The notes beneath the pieces are model-generated. The model ran no database searches, had not been told where the DNA came from, and saw only the letters and a list, made by a program, of their open reading frames with translations. Source: Methylovulum psychrotolerans (GTDB lineage Bacteria; Pseudomonadota; Gammaproteobacteria; Methylococcales; Methylomonadaceae). Taken from it: 64,000 bases of DNA. The stretch spans positions 823,959 to 887,958 of the forward strand of contig NZ_PGFZ01000001.1 in the NCBI RefSeq assembly GCF_002923755.1, in the 5' to 3' direction. Positions 42,641-62,725 of this stretch are shown here, in pieces. A program made the position numbers and the translations under genes. Numbering within the stretch: the first letter of the stretch is position 1; each line of letters begins with the position of its first letter.

Positions 42641-42916
42641 TCATTGATAATGATAGCGGCAGGCAAGAATAGTCAAGTGGCTATCATTCACCACATAGAC
42701 CAAGCGGTTGGTTTCATCAATGCGCCGTGACCAAAAGCCGGCTAAGTTTTCGCGCAGCGGTTCCGGCTTGCCTATGCCGGTAAACGGTTTTTTTTGCGTA
42801 TCGGCGATGAGTTTGTTGAGGCGTTTTAGGATTTTTCTGTCCTGTTCCTGCCAATATAAATAATCTTGCCAAGCCGCATCTGTCCACGCCAAACAGTGGT
42901 TGGCCGGCCTATTCAT
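42641..42916 (-). CDS. yoeB: Txe/YoeB family toxin (mRNA interferase)
   Basis: A 91-residue RelE-fold toxin that cleaves mRNA in the ribosome. Family motifs: AWTDAAWQDYLYWQEQDRKILKRLNKLI, PFTGIGKPEPLRENLAGFWSRRIDETNRLVYVV, and the C-terminal ACRYHYQ, which includes the catalytic His/Tyr region. The ATG at 42916 overlaps the antitoxin stop by 8 nt, ensuring coupled translation. All key segments are present, so it is likely functional. Confidence 0.95.
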   Translation of the reverse strand: MNRPANHCLAWTDAAWQDYLYWQEQDRKILKRLNKLIADTQKKPFTGIGKPEPLRENLAGFWSRRIDETNRLVYVVNDSHLTILACRYHYQ

Positions 42917-43163
42917 CCGGCAACTCACGCTCGGTTAGCAGTCCGGCCTGATATTGCTCAATTGATTTGGCGAGATGGGCCGCATTGGCTGGGGATTTGA
43001 GCAGGTGGACAGTTTCCATCAAACTCGTGTAGTAATCCAAAGACATCACCACAGCATCAGCGGCATCACGGCGGGTGATAACTGTACAATCGGCATCGTT
43101 GATGACATCATCGAGCACGGACTTTAAATTATTTCTTGCTTGGGTAAACGAGAGGATACGCAT
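42909..43163 (-). CDS. yefM: YefM/Phd family antitoxin
   Basis: An 84-residue antitoxin and autorepressor. It opens MRILSFTQARNNLKSVLDDV and has TVITRRDAADAVVMSLDYYTSLMETVHLLKSP, the DNA-binding and dimerisation part. The C-terminal helix (AHLAKSIEQYQAGLLTERELPDE) would wrap the YoeB toxin. First gene of the pair. A TTGTAC/GTACAA operator lies upstream. Confidence 0.95.
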   Translation of the reverse strand: MRILSFTQARNNLKSVLDDVINDADCTVITRRDAADAVVMSLDYYTSLMETVHLLKSPANAAHLAKSIEQYQAGLLTERELPDE

Positions 43164-45773: not shown

Positions 45774-46787
45774 ATGAACCTTTACCCGCTATTACGTCCC
45801 CTGCTCTTTGCGCTAGACCCGGAAACCGCCCACGAAGTCACCTTAAAACTGCTCCAAACCGCACACCGCACCGGACTAGCCCAGCTAACCACCCCTCGCT
45901 TGGCCGACCACCCCGTCGAAATTATGGGTTTAACCTTTAAAAATCCGGTCGGGCTGGCCGCAGGTTTAGACAAAAACGGCGATTATATTGATGCCCTCGC
46001 CGCCTTAGGCTTCGGCTTTATCGAAATCGGCACCGTCACACCGCGCCCCCAACCCGGCAACCCCAAGCCGCGCCTGTTCCGGCTTCCCGAACACCAAGCC
46101 ATCATCAACCGCATGGGCTTTAATAATCTGGGCATAGACCATTTGCTGCAACAAGTCAGCAACAGCGCGTACCATGGCATATTGGGCATTAACATCGGCA
46201 AAAATTTTGACACCCCGATTGCCGATGCGGCGGACGATTACCTGATTGGCCTACGCAAAGCCTACCCGCTCGCCAGTTACATCACCATTAACATCTCTTC
46301 ACCCAACACCCAAAACTTACGCCAGTTACAGCAAGGCGACGAGATCAAAAACCTCATCGCCCGCCTAAAAGAAGAGCAGCTCAGGCTGCACCAGGAACAA
46401 GGCCGCTATGTGCCCTTAGTGGTGAAAATAGCCCCTGATTTAAGCGACGAAGAAATCCGCCACATCGCCCAGCTCTTAAAAAGCTACGCCATTGACGGGG
46501 TCATCGCCACCAATACCACCATCGTCCGCGCCAACATCGCGGGCCATGCCTTAGCGAAGGAAACCGGCGGTTTGAGCGGTGCGCCGGTTAAGGAGCAGGC
46601 GACTTATGTCGTGCGCGGCTTGGCGGCAGAACTGAATGGGACGGTGCCGATCATCGCGGCAGGTGGGATTATCAGTGCGGAAGATGCCCAAGAAAAACTC
46701 GCGGCAGGCGCAAGCTTGGTGCAAGTGTATAGCGGATTAATTTATCGCGGCCCACAGCTAGTGGCGGACGTGCTAGCAGGACTCTAG
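45774..46787 (+). CDS. pyrD: Dihydroorotate dehydrogenase (quinone), class 2
   Basis: Membrane-attached FMN enzyme oxidising dihydroorotate with ubiquinone in pyrimidine synthesis. 337 residues, normal length. The N-terminal helix MNLYPLLRPLLFALDPETAHEV marks class 2. FKNPVGLAAGLDKNGDYIDAL near 56, FIEIGTVTPRPQPGNPKPRLFRL near 82, NRMGFNNLG near 111, and TINISSPNTQNLR near 172 with the catalytic serine are all present. VIATNTTI and IIAAGGIISAEDA complete the FMN site. Probably co-transcribed with thiO. Confidence 0.97.
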   Translation: MNLYPLLRPLLFALDPETAHEVTLKLLQTAHRTGLAQLTTPRLADHPVEIMGLTFKNPVGLAAGLDKNGDYIDALAALGFGFIEIGTVTPRPQPGNPKPRLFRLPEHQAIINRMGFNNLGIDHLLQQVSNSAYHGILGINIGKNFDTPIADAADDYLIGLRKAYPLASYITINISSPNTQNLRQLQQGDEIKNLIARLKEEQLRLHQEQGRYVPLVVKIAPDLSDEEIRHIAQLLKSYAIDGVIATNTTIVRANIAGHALAKETGGLSGAPVKEQATYVVRGLAAELNGTVPIIAAGGIISAEDAQEKLAAGASLVQVYSGLIYRGPQLVADVLAGL

Positions 46788-46850: not shown

Positions 46851-47597
46851 CTAAGCGGCAATTACAATACCCTTTTCCGCCAAGCCCCTTAATATCTGCA
46901 AACCGCCGTTAATCACCAACTCAGGTTGGGGATGCTGCATTTCGGCGGCAATTTGCTCAAGGCTGGCAATGGCTGGGCTTTGCCCATTATCCTGCAAGAG
47001 CGCTAACAGGCGGTAGGTCATCGGCGTAATCTCCAGAAATTGGACATCATCCAAGACGTTACGGTAGACGATTAAAAACGTCGCTTGGGCGGGGGCTTCG
47101 GTAGGTAAAAACGTCGGGGCGATTTTATGGACGGGGTATTGATAGGCTAAAGGCCAAGCGACGGGTGATAAGGCTAACACCTGCCTCGCCAAGTCGTCCG
47201 GCAGCAGGGTAATGGCCGGATTGGGTTCTTGGGCAACGGCGACCGCCATTTCCGCCCACTCATAATGCGCCAACTCCAGCAAAAACGGAAAGTCCCCGGC
47301 ATTATCGCGCTCCTGTTGCAGATAAGCCAAAAACTCTTCAGGTATCTGCGAGAAATACGGCGAACTGCAAGCATGGCGGGCGAAGAAATCCTGCGCCAAC
47401 GCGTACCATTGGGCATCATCAAGCAATTGCCTTATCACCGGAAAATTGCTGGCCAAAAAATTGTCGATATTATTAAACAACAACTCCCGATACATCGCCA
47501 TACGCGGTGGCGGCACATCGGCAGGCACAGGCTGGTGGTCGGGGTCGCGGATATGGGCGACAAATTTGCGTTGCGTCGCGGCAAAATCGGTTTTCAT
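46851..47597 (-). CDS. DUF2063 protein, HvfC/BufC-type partner of an MNIO enzyme
   Basis: A 248-residue protein starting at the ATG at 47597 (MKTDFAATQRKFVAHIRDP), the family's normal N-terminus. An N-terminal DUF2063 DNA-binding-like domain (MAMYRELLFNNIDNFLASNFPVIRQLL, ending near residue 95) precedes a mixed domain (LELAHYEWAEMAV near 111, LAYQYPVHKIAP near 150, LEITPMTYRLLALLQ near 188). Proteins of this family bind the precursor and assist the DUF692 enzyme. It lies 8 bp after the DUF692 gene, third in the precursor-enzyme-partner order known from hvfABC and bufABC operons. Confidence 0.88.
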   Translation of the reverse strand: MKTDFAATQRKFVAHIRDPDHQPVPADVPPPRMAMYRELLFNNIDNFLASNFPVIRQLLDDAQWYALAQDFFARHACSSPYFSQIPEEFLAYLQQERDNAGDFPFLLELAHYEWAEMAVAVAQEPNPAITLLPDDLARQVLALSPVAWPLAYQYPVHKIAPTFLPTEAPAQATFLIVYRNVLDDVQFLEITPMTYRLLALLQDNGQSPAIASLEQIAAEMQHPQPELVINGGLQILRGLAEKGIVIAA

Positions 47598-47605
47598 CGC
47601 AGCCC

Positions 47606-48457
47606 TTAAGCGGATTGTTGGGCATGATGGTGTTGCCATGCCGCTTGTATGGATTTGATCGTATCGACTTCGCGGATCAGTTCGGCCATCTGAGGGATAT
47701 TAAAATCACGCTCCAGCAAGGTCGGAAACACGCCATGCCATTCGTAAGCCTTGCCCAGCAATTTCCACACGGGGTCGATAATTTCCGCACCGTGGGTGTC
47801 CACCAAAAAATCTTCGGCTTCCACATAATGCCCGGCAATATGGGCATAGACAATACGCTGTGCGGGAATGGCCTTTAAAAAGGCCTCGGCATCATAGCCG
47901 TGATTGACACTGTTGACATAAATATTATTCACATCTAACAGCACGTCACAATCGGCTTCCTGCACAACAGCATTAAAAAATTCGAGTTCAGTCATTTCCT
48001 GACCGGGGGCGGCATAGTAAGACACATTCTCAATCGCCATTTTTTGCTCAAGAATATCCTGTACGCGCCTGATGCGTGCCGCAACATGACGGACAGCCTC
48101 AGCGGTAAAAGGAATAGGCAGCAGATCATACAAATGCCCGCCTTGGCTACAATAGCTCAGATGTTCGCTATAAAGCCTGATGCCATGCTCACGCATGAAC
48201 CGCTTAACAGCCAGAACAAAGGTCTCATCGAGCGGGTCAGTACTGCCTAAAGACAGCGACAAACCATGACAGACAAAAGCACAGCGTTCGGTCATGGCAC
48301 GAAATTGCTTGCCGAGCTTACCGCCCATGGTTATCCAGTTTTCGGGAGCGACTTCATAAAAATCGACCGCAGCAGGCGGCGAACCGACAACTTCACTCAA
48401 AAAACTACGCCGCAAGCCTAAGCCAGCCCCCTTCAAAGCGGGTTGTATCGTGTCCAT
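47606..48457 (-). CDS. DUF692 / MNIO family multinuclear iron RiPP-modifying enzyme (HvfB/BufB-like)
   Basis: A 283-residue TIM-barrel enzyme from the ATG at 48457 (MDTIQPALKGAGLGLRR). A longer frame adds a leader unlike the family. Metal-ligand-type motifs are FYEVAPENWI near 33, CHGLSLSLG near 59, LYSEHLSYC near 91, MAIENVSYY near 141, VLLDVNNIYVNSVNHG near 175, HIAGHY near 210 and LLERDFNIP near 256. MNIO enzymes with two or three irons convert peptide cysteines to oxazolone/thioamide or 5-thiooxazole groups that bind copper. The precursor gene is directly upstream, and an attenuator-like hairpin separates the two. Confidence 0.92.
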   Translation of the reverse strand: MDTIQPALKGAGLGLRRSFLSEVVGSPPAAVDFYEVAPENWITMGGKLGKQFRAMTERCAFVCHGLSLSLGSTDPLDETFVLAVKRFMREHGIRLYSEHLSYCSQGGHLYDLLPIPFTAEAVRHVAARIRRVQDILEQKMAIENVSYYAAPGQEMTELEFFNAVVQEADCDVLLDVNNIYVNSVNHGYDAEAFLKAIPAQRIVYAHIAGHYVEAEDFLVDTHGAEIIDPVWKLLGKAYEWHGVFPTLLERDFNIPQMAELIREVDTIKSIQAAWQHHHAQQSA

Positions 48458-48483
48458 CAGAACACCTGTGCAAAAATTAAAGG

Positions 48484-48513
48484 AAAAAAGGGGGACAGCA
48501 ACCGCTATCCCCC
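48484..48513 (-). terminator. Intrinsic terminator/attenuator between the RiPP precursor and its enzyme gene
   Basis: On the minus strand GGGGGATAGC (48513-48504), loop GGTT, GCTGTCCCCC (48499-48490), then six T (48489-48484). The stem is 10 bp with one U-G pair. It lies about 100 bp after the precursor stop and 26 bp before the enzyme's ATG. Partial read-through would give much more precursor than enzyme mRNA. Confidence 0.8.
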
Positions 48514-48616
48514 CATTTAGGAAGGGGCATGAAATATTTGTAGCCATCCAAGTTTTGGTAACCTGAAAAGTCTTAACCGATATAATTACCCCAAACCGTC
48601 CTGGCTTATAAACCTT

Positions 48617-49228
48617 TTAGTGTTTCGCAGGTGCAGCAGGTACGGCAGGTACAGCTTTAGTGGCGGCACAAGCGCCTTCTTTGCCTTTCATCATCTCGCC
48701 ACAGCCTTGCATCGCTTCACCGCAACCTTTCATTTGCGCACCACAAGAACCGTCTTTAGCTTTTTCGGTTGGGCATTTTTGCATGGCTTCGCCGCATTGC
48801 GCCGCACACTTGCCTTCTGGCATTTTGCCGTTAGCCGAACCGCATTTGCCTTCTTTACCTTTCATCATTTCACCGCAAGTGGCTTCCATGCCTTTTTTCA
48901 TTTTTTCGCCTTCCATCATGGCCGCGCACTTACCTTCACCGCATTTGCCTTCAGCCGCTTTCGCAGGCGTTTTAGCACCCGCACAAGCGCCTTCGGCCGC
49001 TTTTGCCGTACCGCCCATATTCATGGACGCGCCGCATTTCATTTCGGCTGGCTTGGCTTCCGCTGGTTTGGCTTCAGCAGGCTTTGCTTCGGCAAGCTGC
49101 ATATAACCGGATGACAACTCAGTCATGCCGAAAGGGTTAGTTTCCGCACTGACAGAGGCTGAAAAAGAGGACATGATGGCTACGCCCATAGCAGCGATCA
49201 ACGGTGATTTATTGTTAGTTATTTTCAT
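48617..49228 (-). CDS. HvfA/BufA-type Cys-rich RiPP precursor (copper metallophore / bufferin-like)
   Basis: A 203-residue low-complexity protein. Signal peptide to about residue 28 (MGVAIMSSFSASVSA), then the family-typical TNPFGMTELSSGYMQLAEA and a PAEAK x3 linker. The core has 13 cysteines: EGKC appears four times (EGKCGEGKCA, KEGKCGS, PEGKCA), with variants EGAC, DGSC, EATCGEMMKG, MKGCGEAMQGCGEMMKG and AAQCGEAMQKC. Lys, Gly, Glu and Met are abundant. EGKCG cysteines are the known sites of MNIO modification in HvfA. The genes for the DUF692 enzyme and DUF2063 partner follow. Good ribosome site (GGAAGG). Periplasmic or secreted copper binding is inferred. Confidence 0.88.
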   Translation of the reverse strand: MKITNNKSPLIAAMGVAIMSSFSASVSAETNPFGMTELSSGYMQLAEAKPAEAKPAEAKPAEMKCGASMNMGGTAKAAEGACAGAKTPAKAAEGKCGEGKCAAMMEGEKMKKGMEATCGEMMKGKEGKCGSANGKMPEGKCAAQCGEAMQKCPTEKAKDGSCGAQMKGCGEAMQGCGEMMKGKEGACAATKAVPAVPAAPAKH

Positions 49229-49263: not shown

Positions 49264-49325
49264 ACGGCACGGGGCCCGTGTCGCCGTGCATGTCCAAGTA
49301 TACCCGAACACGCGGTAAATATAAG
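49264..49325 (-). promoter_or_regulatory. Promoter and leader hairpin of the RiPP operon
   Basis: TATACT on the minus strand at 49302-49297 with a weak CTTATA (49325-49320) 17 bp upstream. Immediately after the expected start lies a GC hairpin (ACGGC..CACGG / CCGTG..GCCGT, 49287-49264) followed by TTTATT. It could be a leader attenuator for the precursor gene, or the terminator of nth. Confidence 0.4.
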
Positions 49326-49391
49326 GGGATTGCAAAAAATTACAATGTTTAAATCGGGGTATCCGCCGCCAAAATGCCTGTCCAATCTAGG

Positions 49392-50048
49392 CTAATGGAC
49401 ACTAAGCACCTGAGCGGCAGACGTTTTCTCTGGATATTCACATAAGTCAGCCAGCACACATTGGCTGCAACGCGGCTTTCTGGCGGTGCAGGTATAGCGC
49501 CCATGCAAAATCAGCAAATGGTGGGCGGTTTGCTTATAGTGTTTTGGAGTCGATTTATCTAACTTTTGTTCCACTTGCAGAACATTTTTGCCGACTGCCA
49601 GACGGGTTCGGTTGGCGACCCGGAAAATATGGGTGTCGACAGCGATGGTCGGCTGCCCAAACGCCGTGTTAAGAATCACATTAGCCGTTTTACGCCCTAC
49701 CCCCGCTAACGCTTCCAATTGCTCACGGGTATTTGGCACTTGCCCGCCATGCCTGTCTAACAATTGCTGGCATAAAGTCATGATATTTGCGGCCTTGCTG
49801 TTAAATAGGCCAATAGTTTTAATATACGCTTTTAAGCCATCCAGCCCCAGCGCCAGCAGACTTGCCGGAGTATTGGCGACCGGGAACAACTGCGCGGTCG
49901 CCTTATTAACCCCCTTATCGGTCGCTTGCGCAGACAGCACTACGGCAATCAGCAATTCAAAATCGGTACGGTAATTCAGCTCGGTGGCCGGTTCAGGAAT
50001 CGCGGCGGCGAGGCGCTCAAACAACGCCAAGCGTTTGCTGGCGTTCAT
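49392..50048 (-). CDS. nth: Endonuclease III
   Basis: Base-excision repair glycosylase/AP lyase for oxidised pyrimidines. 218 residues. Helix-hairpin-helix LEALAGVGRKTANVIL near residue 110 with the catalytic Lys, VDTHIFRVANR with the catalytic Asp near 138, and a C-terminal [4Fe-4S] motif CTARKPRCSQCVLADLC (C-x6-C-x2-C-x5-C). MNASKRLALFERL is a normal start. The ATG is only 3 bp from the end of a palindromic repeat element, and no Shine-Dalgarno is visible. Its leader must therefore come from the element. Confidence 0.96.
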   Translation of the reverse strand: MNASKRLALFERLAAAIPEPATELNYRTDFELLIAVVLSAQATDKGVNKATAQLFPVANTPASLLALGLDGLKAYIKTIGLFNSKAANIMTLCQQLLDRHGGQVPNTREQLEALAGVGRKTANVILNTAFGQPTIAVDTHIFRVANRTRLAVGKNVLQVEQKLDKSTPKHYKQTAHHLLILHGRYTCTARKPRCSQCVLADLCEYPEKTSAAQVLSVH

Positions 50049-50051
50049 AAA

Positions 50052-50374
50052 TAACTAACGTTACGCAGTAACGTCGCTTTTATCCCGTTTGCCGCGCCGA
50101 GCATCGCAGGTTTTGTCGGGATCAGCCCGAAGGGGCGCGGCAGGGATGCCGCGCGTCGGCAGGAGGGCAGGAGCCCTCTCTGCCGACCCCCGACAAAACC
50201 GAGAAGCGCAGGATCAAGCGGCAATCGGGCCGCCTTTTCTTTGGATACTTTCTTTTGGCGGAGCAAAAGAAAGTATCTCGCCTTCGGGTGCGAAAACCCG
50301 ATTAAAAAACCTCGCGATAGCGACTCATTATTTGTTTTTTTAAATCGCAGAATAGGTCTGTGTAACATCAGTAA
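50052..50374. repeat. MITE-like palindromic element, copy 1 (about 323 bp)
   Basis: Terminal inverted repeats TAACTAACGTTACGCAG (50052-50068) and CTGTGTAACATCAGTAA (50358-50374) are close to the perfect ends of copy 2 at 62402. The interior has nested stems: GTTTTGTCGGG with CCCGACAAAAC, GCGCGGCA-GGGA-TGCCGCGC, GTCGGCAG..GAGGGC-AGGA-GCCCTC..CTGCCGAC, and a 14-bp stem GATACTTTCTTTTG/CAAAAGAAAGTATC. No transposase. It lies between the DUF6882 gene and nth, and spurious frames inside resemble commonly mis-annotated hypothetical proteins. Confidence 0.9.
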
Positions 50375-50388
50375 ACAAACACCCGGCA

Positions 50389-50874
50389 TCAGTGCAATGT
50401 CCTAGGTGTCAGTATCCGCAAGGCGTTGATCGCCAAAAAGATATACAGACCATTTTCGGTAGGGGCGCGGTAACAGCCCATCGCCCCCAAATGCTTAACG
50501 ACAATCGCCATCATTTCCCACACCATCGGCTCATCCAACTCAAACGCCGCTTCATTGGCAAACAGGGGGAAACCGGTTATTTTTGCCAGCTCCTTAATGG
50601 GCAAGGCCTTTTCGCGCAAAGACTTCAATATGGGCGGATTGCTCCAACCCCATTTCCAACTGTGGTTGGGTGCAGAATAACTGCCCAAATTGATAATGTC
50701 CGCTTCAACCGCAACTCGGTCATTACCGTCAAAAAACTGCAACAGCTCGGCTTCCTGGTCACACCACCAACTCGCCCATTGGCCCAAGTCATAAACGTCC
50801 TGTAAGTGATCTTGCTTGACCGTCAGCTCAGCCAAGGCTTGCGTCAGCAAATCACCAAATTCTTCGTTAGTCAT
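50389..50874 (-). CDS. DUF6882-like hypothetical protein
   Basis: A 161-residue soluble protein from the ATG at 50874; a GTG three codons upstream is the alternative. The pattern WASWWCDQEAELLQFFDGNDR, VEADIINLGSYSAPNHSWKWGWSNPPIL and the alpha-helical rest fit a DUF6882-type family of unknown function. No signal peptide or TM segment. It follows the mtiP gene by 21 bp on the same strand and is probably co-transcribed with the purine-salvage genes. No function can be assigned. Confidence 0.7.
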   Translation of the reverse strand: MTNEEFGDLLTQALAELTVKQDHLQDVYDLGQWASWWCDQEAELLQFFDGNDRVAVEADIINLGSYSAPNHSWKWGWSNPPILKSLREKALPIKELAKITGFPLFANEAAFELDEPMVWEMMAIVVKHLGAMGCYRAPTENGLYIFLAINALRILTPRTLH

Positions 50875-50895
50875 CGCTATCACCCAGACCCGGAG

Positions 50896-62404: not shown

Positions 62405-62725
62405 CTGATGTTACGCAGTAACATCTTTCTCCCGTTTGCCGCGCCGAGCATCGCAGGTTTTGTCGGGATCAGCCCGAAGGGGCGCGGCAGGGATGCCGCG
62501 CGTCGGCAGGTGGGCAGGAGCCCACTCTGCCGACCCCCGACGACAAAACCGAGAAGCGCAGGATCAAGCGGCAACCGGGCCGCCTTTTCTTTGGATACTT
62601 TCTTTTGGCGGAGCAAAAGAAAGTATCTCGCCTTCGGGTGCGAGAACCCGATTAAAAAACCGTCGCGATAGCGACTCATTATTTGTTTTTTTAAATCGCA
62701 GAAAATGTCTGCGTAACATCAGTTA
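62402..62725. repeat. MITE-like palindromic element, copy 2 (324 bp)
   Basis: Perfect 17-bp terminal inverted repeat TAACTGATGTTACGCAG (62402-62418) / CTGCGTAACATCAGTTA (62709-62725). The interior is almost identical to copy 1, including the 14-bp stem GATACTTTCTTTTG (62594-62607) / CAAAAGAAAGTATC (62614-62627). It differs by a GAC insertion near 62540 and by a compensatory pair change (T62511:A62524 instead of A:T in copy 1). No coding capacity for a transposase and no clear target duplication. Its right end is 5 bp from the rlmI ATG. Confidence 0.92.

Follow-up and report, generated by a model that had tools for sequence, protein, structure and literature searches.

A captophorin-type hvfABC operon in Methylovulum psychrotolerans and the diversified cysteine contexts of its precursor family

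Introduction

Captophorins are ribosomally synthesised and post-translationally modified peptides (RiPPs) whose Lys-Cys sites become copper-binding 5-thiooxazoles, a chemistry described from fontiphorin, oxazolin and gonophorin (PMC13097082); the chemistry of the HvfBC enzyme pair has also been published (PMC13419390). Here we analyse an operon of this type, hvfABC, in a 64,000-nucleotide stretch of the Methylovulum psychrotolerans genome (GCF_002923755.1, contig NZ_PGFZ01000001.1, positions 823,959 to 887,958), referred to below as the window.

The closest described systems share much with this locus. Oxazolin, the product of HvfABC in Haemophilus influenzae (models NF050188, NF003818 and NF050145), resembles it in the types of its multinuclear non-haem iron-dependent oxidative (MNIO) enzyme and DUF2063 protein, in its signal peptide and in its EGKCG sites, but has six modified cysteines, whereas the window precursor has 13, of which four stand in EGKC, together with a CGExMxxC module. 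Fontiphorin, a captophorin made by FonABC of Fontimonas thermophila (PMC13097082), likewise comes from a minimal three-gene cluster without DoxX, and an Arg-Arg and an Asp-Phe are shared at matching motifs; its seven modified sites lie in Lys-Cys repeats, whereas Ala, Thr, Ser, Gly or Gln often precedes cysteine in the window. The Buf_EGKCG/oxazolin family of Antoine et al. (PMC12452194) has the same Sec signal and repeats, with up to 58 cysteines published. Methanobactin (MbnABC) also combines MNIO chemistry on cysteine, copper and methanotrophs, but the window differs from it in the signal-peptide-like start of the precursor, in the DUF2063-type partner and in an MbnB score of 51 bits (TIGR04159, cut-off 325). 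In the open-licence literature, taken as main articles without supplements, we found no description of the window variant or of the peptide system in methanotrophs, and neither the shift from Lys to Ala or Ser before cysteine nor the CGExMxxC module described below was found in the main text of Antoine et al. as far as it was available.

Results

The window holds an operon of the Buf_EGKCG/oxazolin type

The operon consists of three minus-strand genes encoding the precursor, the MNIO enzyme (formerly DUF692) and the DUF2063 partner:

48617..49228, minus strand: hvfA, RiPP precursor of 203 residues with 13 cysteines, above the cut-off of NF050137 and below that of NF050188
47606..48457, minus strand: hvfB, MNIO enzyme (MbnB_TglH_ChrH, PF05114), 283 residues from the start common to relatives
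46851..47597, minus strand: hvfC, partner protein of the DUF2063/RiPP recognition element (RRE) type, 248 residues; PF09836, PF22106, NF050145

The mechanical open reading frame (ORF) of hvfB begins at 48547, but relatives align from 48457, which was therefore adopted; for hvfC the mechanical ORF begins at 47639 and the start was taken as 47597. HvfB passes the HvfB model NF003818 (441 bits, cut-off 360) and matches PF05114 with 352 bits, HvfC passes NF050145 (314 bits, cut-off 142), and HvfA passes NF050137, the KCGExKCG_twice domain (23.6 bits, cut-off 19.5), with no Pfam match up to an E value of 0.1. Relatives of solved structure are 3bww, aligned to HvfB, and 3dee for HvfC. In 72 of 81 family loci, the window included, the gene before that of the MNIO encodes a cysteine-rich precursor, and the ratio of non-synonymous to synonymous substitution (dN/dS) of hvfA is 0.06-0.14 against four Methylovulum relatives, indicating purifying selection; hvfB is likewise under strong constraint. 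Because of the model scores, the conserved gene order and the low dN/dS, the operon is not a chance arrangement, and it looks functional.

Thus the operon of precursor, DUF692 and DUF2063 genes that the original prediction, made from the sequence alone, had placed at 46851..49228 is borne out. At the level of the peptide, a captophorin or Buf_EGKCG (HvfA-like) operon is marked by 5-thiooxazole groups, absorbance at about 305 nm and copper binding. At the level of the genes, the locus has what marks such an operon, namely an HvfB-type MNIO, a DUF2063 partner and an EGKCG-like cysteine-rich precursor directly before the MNIO gene, and by sequence the precursor belongs with the Buf_EGKCG/oxazolin (‘captophorin’) peptides. 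Model scores and published relatives support the family, the partner enzymes and the class of chemistry named there. Of the combined label HvfA/BufA, only the Hvf half can be kept: the BufB model NF050167 gives 267 bits against a cut-off of 310, and the precursor lacks a Pfam match where DUF2282 would be expected of bufferin 1 (BufA1/BufB), which was rejected. Methanobactin was rejected on its MbnB score and on the identity of the genome's only MNIO match, which is of HvfB type.

Two elements of the precursor probably concern its recognition and export:

49145..49228, minus strand: signal-peptide-like N-terminus, residues 1-28 (...VSA/E), read from the sequence alone
49100..49138, minus strand: leader motif NPFGMTELSSGYM, residues 31-43, nearly invariant in 17 aligned precursors

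The 17-sequence alignment sets the window beside 16 further precursors with two copies of the C-terminal module, out of 17 such precursors (L042 was omitted), so that the presence in it of the module cysteines, Met149 and Met173 is partly a matter of selection. Ala28 and Glu29 are invariant, 11 of the 13 cysteines occur in all 17 sequences, Cys101 in 16 and Cys96 in 4; the leader motif NPFGMTELSSGYM is a probable recognition element. The layout read earlier, with an N-terminus like a signal peptide, TNPFGMTELSSGYM and 13 cysteines of which four are in EGKC, is confirmed, but only two of the linkers are exact copies of PAEAK, not three, the sequences at their flanks being LAEAK and PAEMK, and the list of non-EGKC contexts had left out EMKC, AAQC and MQKCP. 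Nor are 13 cysteines an outlier: at least 13 occur in 16 of 73 family ORFs (range 4-17, counted on whole mechanical ORFs with the window excluded), and the published maximum is 58 (PMC12452194).

The system is almost universal in the family

The nearest relatives are Methylovulum records, with MNIO identity up to 90%. The genome has one pmoA-type match, which supports the likely methanotroph host originally proposed, one MNIO match and a single HvfC match; there is no sign of a methanobactin enzyme, the sole MNIO match being HvfB-type. Of 151 genomes of the family (Methylomonadaceae), 143 have an HvfC match above the cut-off; the corresponding figures are 108 of 121 in an order sample (Methylococcales, many of the same family) and 89 of 276 in a class sample (Gammaproteobacteria, including the window genome and two more of the order), with completeness filters that differ among the three samples. 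Within the class sample, peptides of a similar kind are spread over many other families.

Some family members carry more than one precursor. Three genomes (G494, G117 and G089; loci L232-L234) have a second precursor beside a more distant MNIO of 56-58% identity, two of these precursors showing GCSGK/GGCSG contexts, and L063 and L064 have tandem precursor genes upstream of the MNIO gene (117 residues with 4 cysteines; 209 residues with 9).

The residue before cysteine has shifted across the family

Family loci were the window and the 80 closest to its MNIO, of which 72 of 81 gave precursors; 60 class loci were drawn from genomes above the HvfC cut-off, mostly the best-scoring. Loci without an ORF fitting the precursor pattern were left out (9 of 81 in the family, window included, and 15 of 60 in the class), and precursor-like ORFs that missed the pattern (L218 and L221 in the order, L232-L234 in the family) were not counted.

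In the family, cysteine is preceded by Ala in 39%, Lys in 24% and Ser in 19% of cases (651 cysteines, 72 precursors), whereas Lys accounts for 89% in the class (317 cysteines, 45 precursors); the Lys-Cys fraction has a median of 0.19 in the family and 1.00 in the class. In another family set, of 28 precursors from 30 other loci and partly overlapping in species, the shares were Ala 36%, Ser 23% and Lys 17%. Among 23 precursors from other families of the order the median fraction is 0.86, with one below 0.5 and a median of four cysteines, and several carry Val or Asn before some cysteines. A general loss of Lys was rejected as the cause, the frequency of Lys elsewhere in the peptides being unchanged (0.149 in the family, 0.138 in the class).

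The window precursor has a fraction of 0.46, and 65 of 73 family precursors lie at or below it. Its contexts, called unusually diversified in the original prediction, are therefore so by comparison with the class and not with its own family; the comparison of motifs across relatives proposed there showed diversified contexts to be common to the family, with CGExMxxC present twice in 18 of 72 precursors. In one class precursor (L164) every core cysteine follows a Ser, which suggests that Ser in this position is accepted.

In a quick MNIO tree without bootstrap, a single branch (SH-aLRT 99) separates the family from the rest. The tree does not show that the shift arose cleanly once: a low-Lys label needs 10 changes on it and a two-module label 7. 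It included the order set of 23 precursors and 22 of 44 class precursors; L197, of the same order and counted among the 45 class precursors above, was moved to the order set for it. L220, whose chosen ORF is not a precursor, was excluded from the order set by hand, and L222 has no MNIO.

Most sites are predicted substrates of an ordinary enzyme

A part in specificity or catalysis is reported for four FonB residues, Arg15, Arg16, Asp249 and Phe250 (PMC13097082). Their counterparts, placed by the motifs GLGLRR and ERDFNIP and not by alignment to FonB, are conserved in 81, 81, 81 and 80 of the 81 family enzymes; for the 60 class enzymes the numbers are 56, 58, 60 and 56. A change at these sites was accordingly rejected as the cause of the shift. 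FonBC accepts Ala, Arg or Thr before cysteine and Ala after it, rejects Pro at every position, and did not process a charged residue after cysteine in the motifs tried; one unusual Cys-Tyr substrate was modified once (PMC13097082).

By this rule Cys65, 82, 96, 101, 118, 129, 141 and 187 should be modified. The accepted residues were varied one at a time, and Ala on both sides, as at Cys82 and Cys187, is not among the FonBC tests in the parts of the report available. Cys145, 162 and 169 stand in contexts outside those tests and are plausible substrates. Since the specificity residues look canonical and FonBC is itself tolerant, most sites would need no new enzyme property; the more tolerant enzyme once proposed is thus superfluous for them.

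A C-terminal module retains cysteines that may stay unmodified

48668..48817, minus strand: C-terminal module, residues 138-187 (CGEAMQKC, CGEAMQGC), supported by motif counts in family and class
48773..48775, minus strand: Cys152 codon, followed by Pro; next residue in 17 module-bearing precursors P4 A4 S1 D7 E1, never Gly
48701..48703, minus strand: Cys176 codon, followed by Gly in the window; next residue in the 17 precursors G5 A2 S7 V1 K1 T1

CGExMxxC occurs twice in the 18 family precursors mentioned above and a single time in 2 others, while the 45 class precursors lack it. Gly or Ala follows the second cysteine of the motif in 14 of 38 cases but follows 611 of the 613 remaining family cysteines, a contrast whose Fisher p-value (9e-32) is too small in that related sequences were treated as independent. 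A check of the genus without motif selection gave 12 precursors from 15 loci, some of the same species as in the 17-sequence alignment; the three loci without a precursor were two with a short upstream region and one with a 40%-identical MNIO. Eleven of the 12 have the module twice and 13 cysteines, the exception (L255) having nine cysteines and no module. In this set Pro or Ala follows the second cysteine of the first pair, and Gly, Ser, Thr or Ala that of the second. Met149, 166, 173 and 179 are identical throughout the 17-sequence alignment, Met149 and Met173 lying inside the motif used to select it.

Cys152 should remain unmodified because the Pro that follows it is rejected by FonBC, although in the four relatives with Ala there it could be a substrate, Ala being accepted. 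The state of Cys176 is uncertain, since Gly follows it in the window; it is possibly unmodified. The earlier suggestion that part of the core is unmodified thus holds as a prediction for Cys152 and perhaps Cys176, from the residue after cysteine, and not for most sites. Conservation of a cysteine that the enzyme is expected to leave alone suggests that it serves as a plain thiol or in a disulphide. In bufferin 1, an outer disulphide stands beside modified inner cysteines (PMC12452194).

A hairpin separates the precursor from the enzyme gene

48489..48514, minus strand: terminator-like hairpin between hvfA and hvfB, 11 pairs, 7 GC, with a T-run
49289..49345, minus strand: upstream block with promoter-like TTGTAA-N16-TATATT, similar in close Methylovulum relatives by alignment

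The hairpin is the longest of 8 terminator-like sites in the 3.5 kb scanned, where 4.9 were expected. Counterparts occur in four close relatives (L033, L034, L035, L036) and in none of the 10 others displayed; over 71 family loci, window included, there are 17 against 1.5 expected from mononucleotide shuffles. The hairpin is probably an attenuator, through which more precursor than enzyme would be made.

A second precursor lies at a distant locus

A search of the genome with HvfA found a 110-residue ORF at G000:C1:311310-311609, about 559 kb from the window operon:

L237 1501-2461 (G000:C1 near 311310-312267): distant precursor and HvfX/DoxX gene, near a P-II gene

Its four cysteines stand in EGKCGEGKCG, EGKCG and EGSCG, which is the canonical type, and it passes NF050137 (36.9 bits) and, like the window HvfA, fails NF050188 (39.8 bits). 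Beyond it, at a distance of 85 bases, lies an HvfX-family gene (NF050144, 139.9 bits, cut-off 80; DoxX in Pfam), and no MNIO gene adjoins it. For this precursor dN/dS could be computed in 9 of 10 pairs and lies at 0.15-0.30. The arrangement of a precursor immediately followed by DoxX, without an MNIO match in the stretch examined, recurs in G024, G050, G500, G502 and G497, some of these loci being short, whereas in G089 and G501 an MNIO is present at the locus. The window genome, G024 and G050 are near-complete and have a single MNIO match each.

Since the genome has a single MNIO and none stands beside the distant precursor, the window HvfBC pair probably serves both precursors, or else the distant peptide works unmodified. 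One enzyme pair with several precursors is a situation known in kind, genomes of that description being mentioned by Antoine et al. (PMC12452194).

Other features of the window

49392-50048, minus strand (as the operon): endonuclease III gene, upstream neighbour
45774-46787, opposite strand to the operon: dihydroorotate dehydrogenase gene, downstream neighbour

Elsewhere the window contains a YoeB/YefM-type toxin-antitoxin pair (PF06769, PF02604) at 42641-43163, a DUF6882 protein of unknown function at 50389-50883, and a repeat of about 236 bases at 50085-50320, with a second copy at about 62432-62671 and 43 matches in the genome. The best other copies are 96-98% identical to the window copy, and many are shorter or more diverged.

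Discussion

The genes, their family membership, their conservation and their counts are direct observations; from these and from published relatives we infer chemistry, export, copper binding, attenuation, a second substrate and function. We regard it as very likely that the locus is a captophorin (Buf_EGKCG/oxazolin-type) operon working as follows. HvfC would bind the HvfA leader in the cytoplasm and present HvfA to HvfB, a multinuclear iron enzyme that would convert cysteines lying after Lys or a small residue and before Gly or Ala to 5-thiooxazoles, with the loss of four hydrogens each. The product would be exported by Sec and bind Cu(I) in the periplasm, chiefly buffering excess copper. 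The residue before cysteine has drifted in the family from Lys to Ala or Ser with no matching change at the reported specificity sites of the enzyme. The hairpin would keep precursor in excess of enzyme, and the sole HvfBC pair of the genome would also modify the distant 4-Cys precursor. Buffering is taken as the default function because copper binding is known from published relatives, the genes of which are responsive to copper excess, gold or oxidative stress (PMC12452194, PMC13097082).

Several observations weigh against this picture. HvfA reaches only 37.6 bits with NF050188, the HvfA equivalog of oxazolin proper, for a cut-off of 95, and the window operon lacks hvfX/DoxX. Lys precedes at least half of the cysteines in 8 of 72 family precursors, three of the cysteine-richest (L077, L084, L092) among them. 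The promoter scan was near chance, at 5 sites against 3.3 expected, a weak point. The DoxX protein of the distant locus has matches in 10 of 20 genus genomes, several of which are weak or partial matches. Finally, AlphaFold gave no confident fold for HvfA (mean pLDDT 43.7), with weak helices only, at 114-122, 140-150 and 162-180; the Met/Cys spacing 166-169-173-176-179/180 would fall on one helix face, in a model too weak to use.

Other explanations have to be set beside it. Conceivably the HvfB of this lineage has become less strict about the residue after cysteine, with Cys152 and Cys176 also substrates and all 13 cysteines modified: both are retained in 11 of 12 genus precursors not selected by motif, Ala, which FonBC accepts, follows Cys152 in 4 of 17 aligned precursors, and FonBC did once modify a Cys-Tyr substrate. 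We think this improbable, however, given the rejection of Pro and of charged residues after cysteine by FonBC in the motifs tested (PMC13097082) and the retention of the D249/F250 counterparts in 81 and 80 of 81 family enzymes. Still less credible, and in our view highly improbable, is a mainly unmodified, Cys/Met-rich metallothionein-like HvfA, for which the many contexts unlike EGKCG and the four identical methionines would speak; hvfB and hvfC stand adjacent and intact, hvfB is strongly constrained, and 8 of 13 cysteines have flanking residues accepted by FonBC.

As regards function, the product may deliver or store copper for particulate methane monooxygenase (pMMO) rather than protect from excess, an unlikely alternative that we nevertheless rate a little above full modification. 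The genome has a pmoA-type match and no MbnB-type MNIO, and HvfC passes its cut-off in 143 of 151 family genomes, as opposed to 89 of 276 in the class sample. So wide a presence in a family that depends on pMMO is consistent with supply or storage, although presence alone is no proof. Studied relatives act in copper excess, however (PMC12452194, PMC13097082), and the class sample has comparable peptides in many other families. It is tempting to join these strands, and we offer tentatively, as a possibility somewhat stronger than supply alone, a hybrid metallophore in which up to 11 thiooxazoles, two unmodified cysteines and Met149/166/173/179 would make up copper sites of mixed thiolate/thioether/thiooxazole type or a disulphide. 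A single HvfBC pair would then serve both the 13-Cys and the HvfX-paired 4-Cys peptides, the two together being a periplasmic copper store for bacteria that depend on pMMO. The captophorin operon with copper buffering remains the best explanation.

Taken together, the kind of operon is already known, and the peptide of this methanotroph family has drifted from the textbook sequence in an orderly way. Methanotrophs are governed by copper, and the peptide system is almost universal in this family. Its precursors offer a naturally occurring set of substrates on which a young class of enzymes can be studied, predicting site by site which cysteines are modified and which are not, and the system can show whether one enzyme pair acts on an unlinked second precursor.

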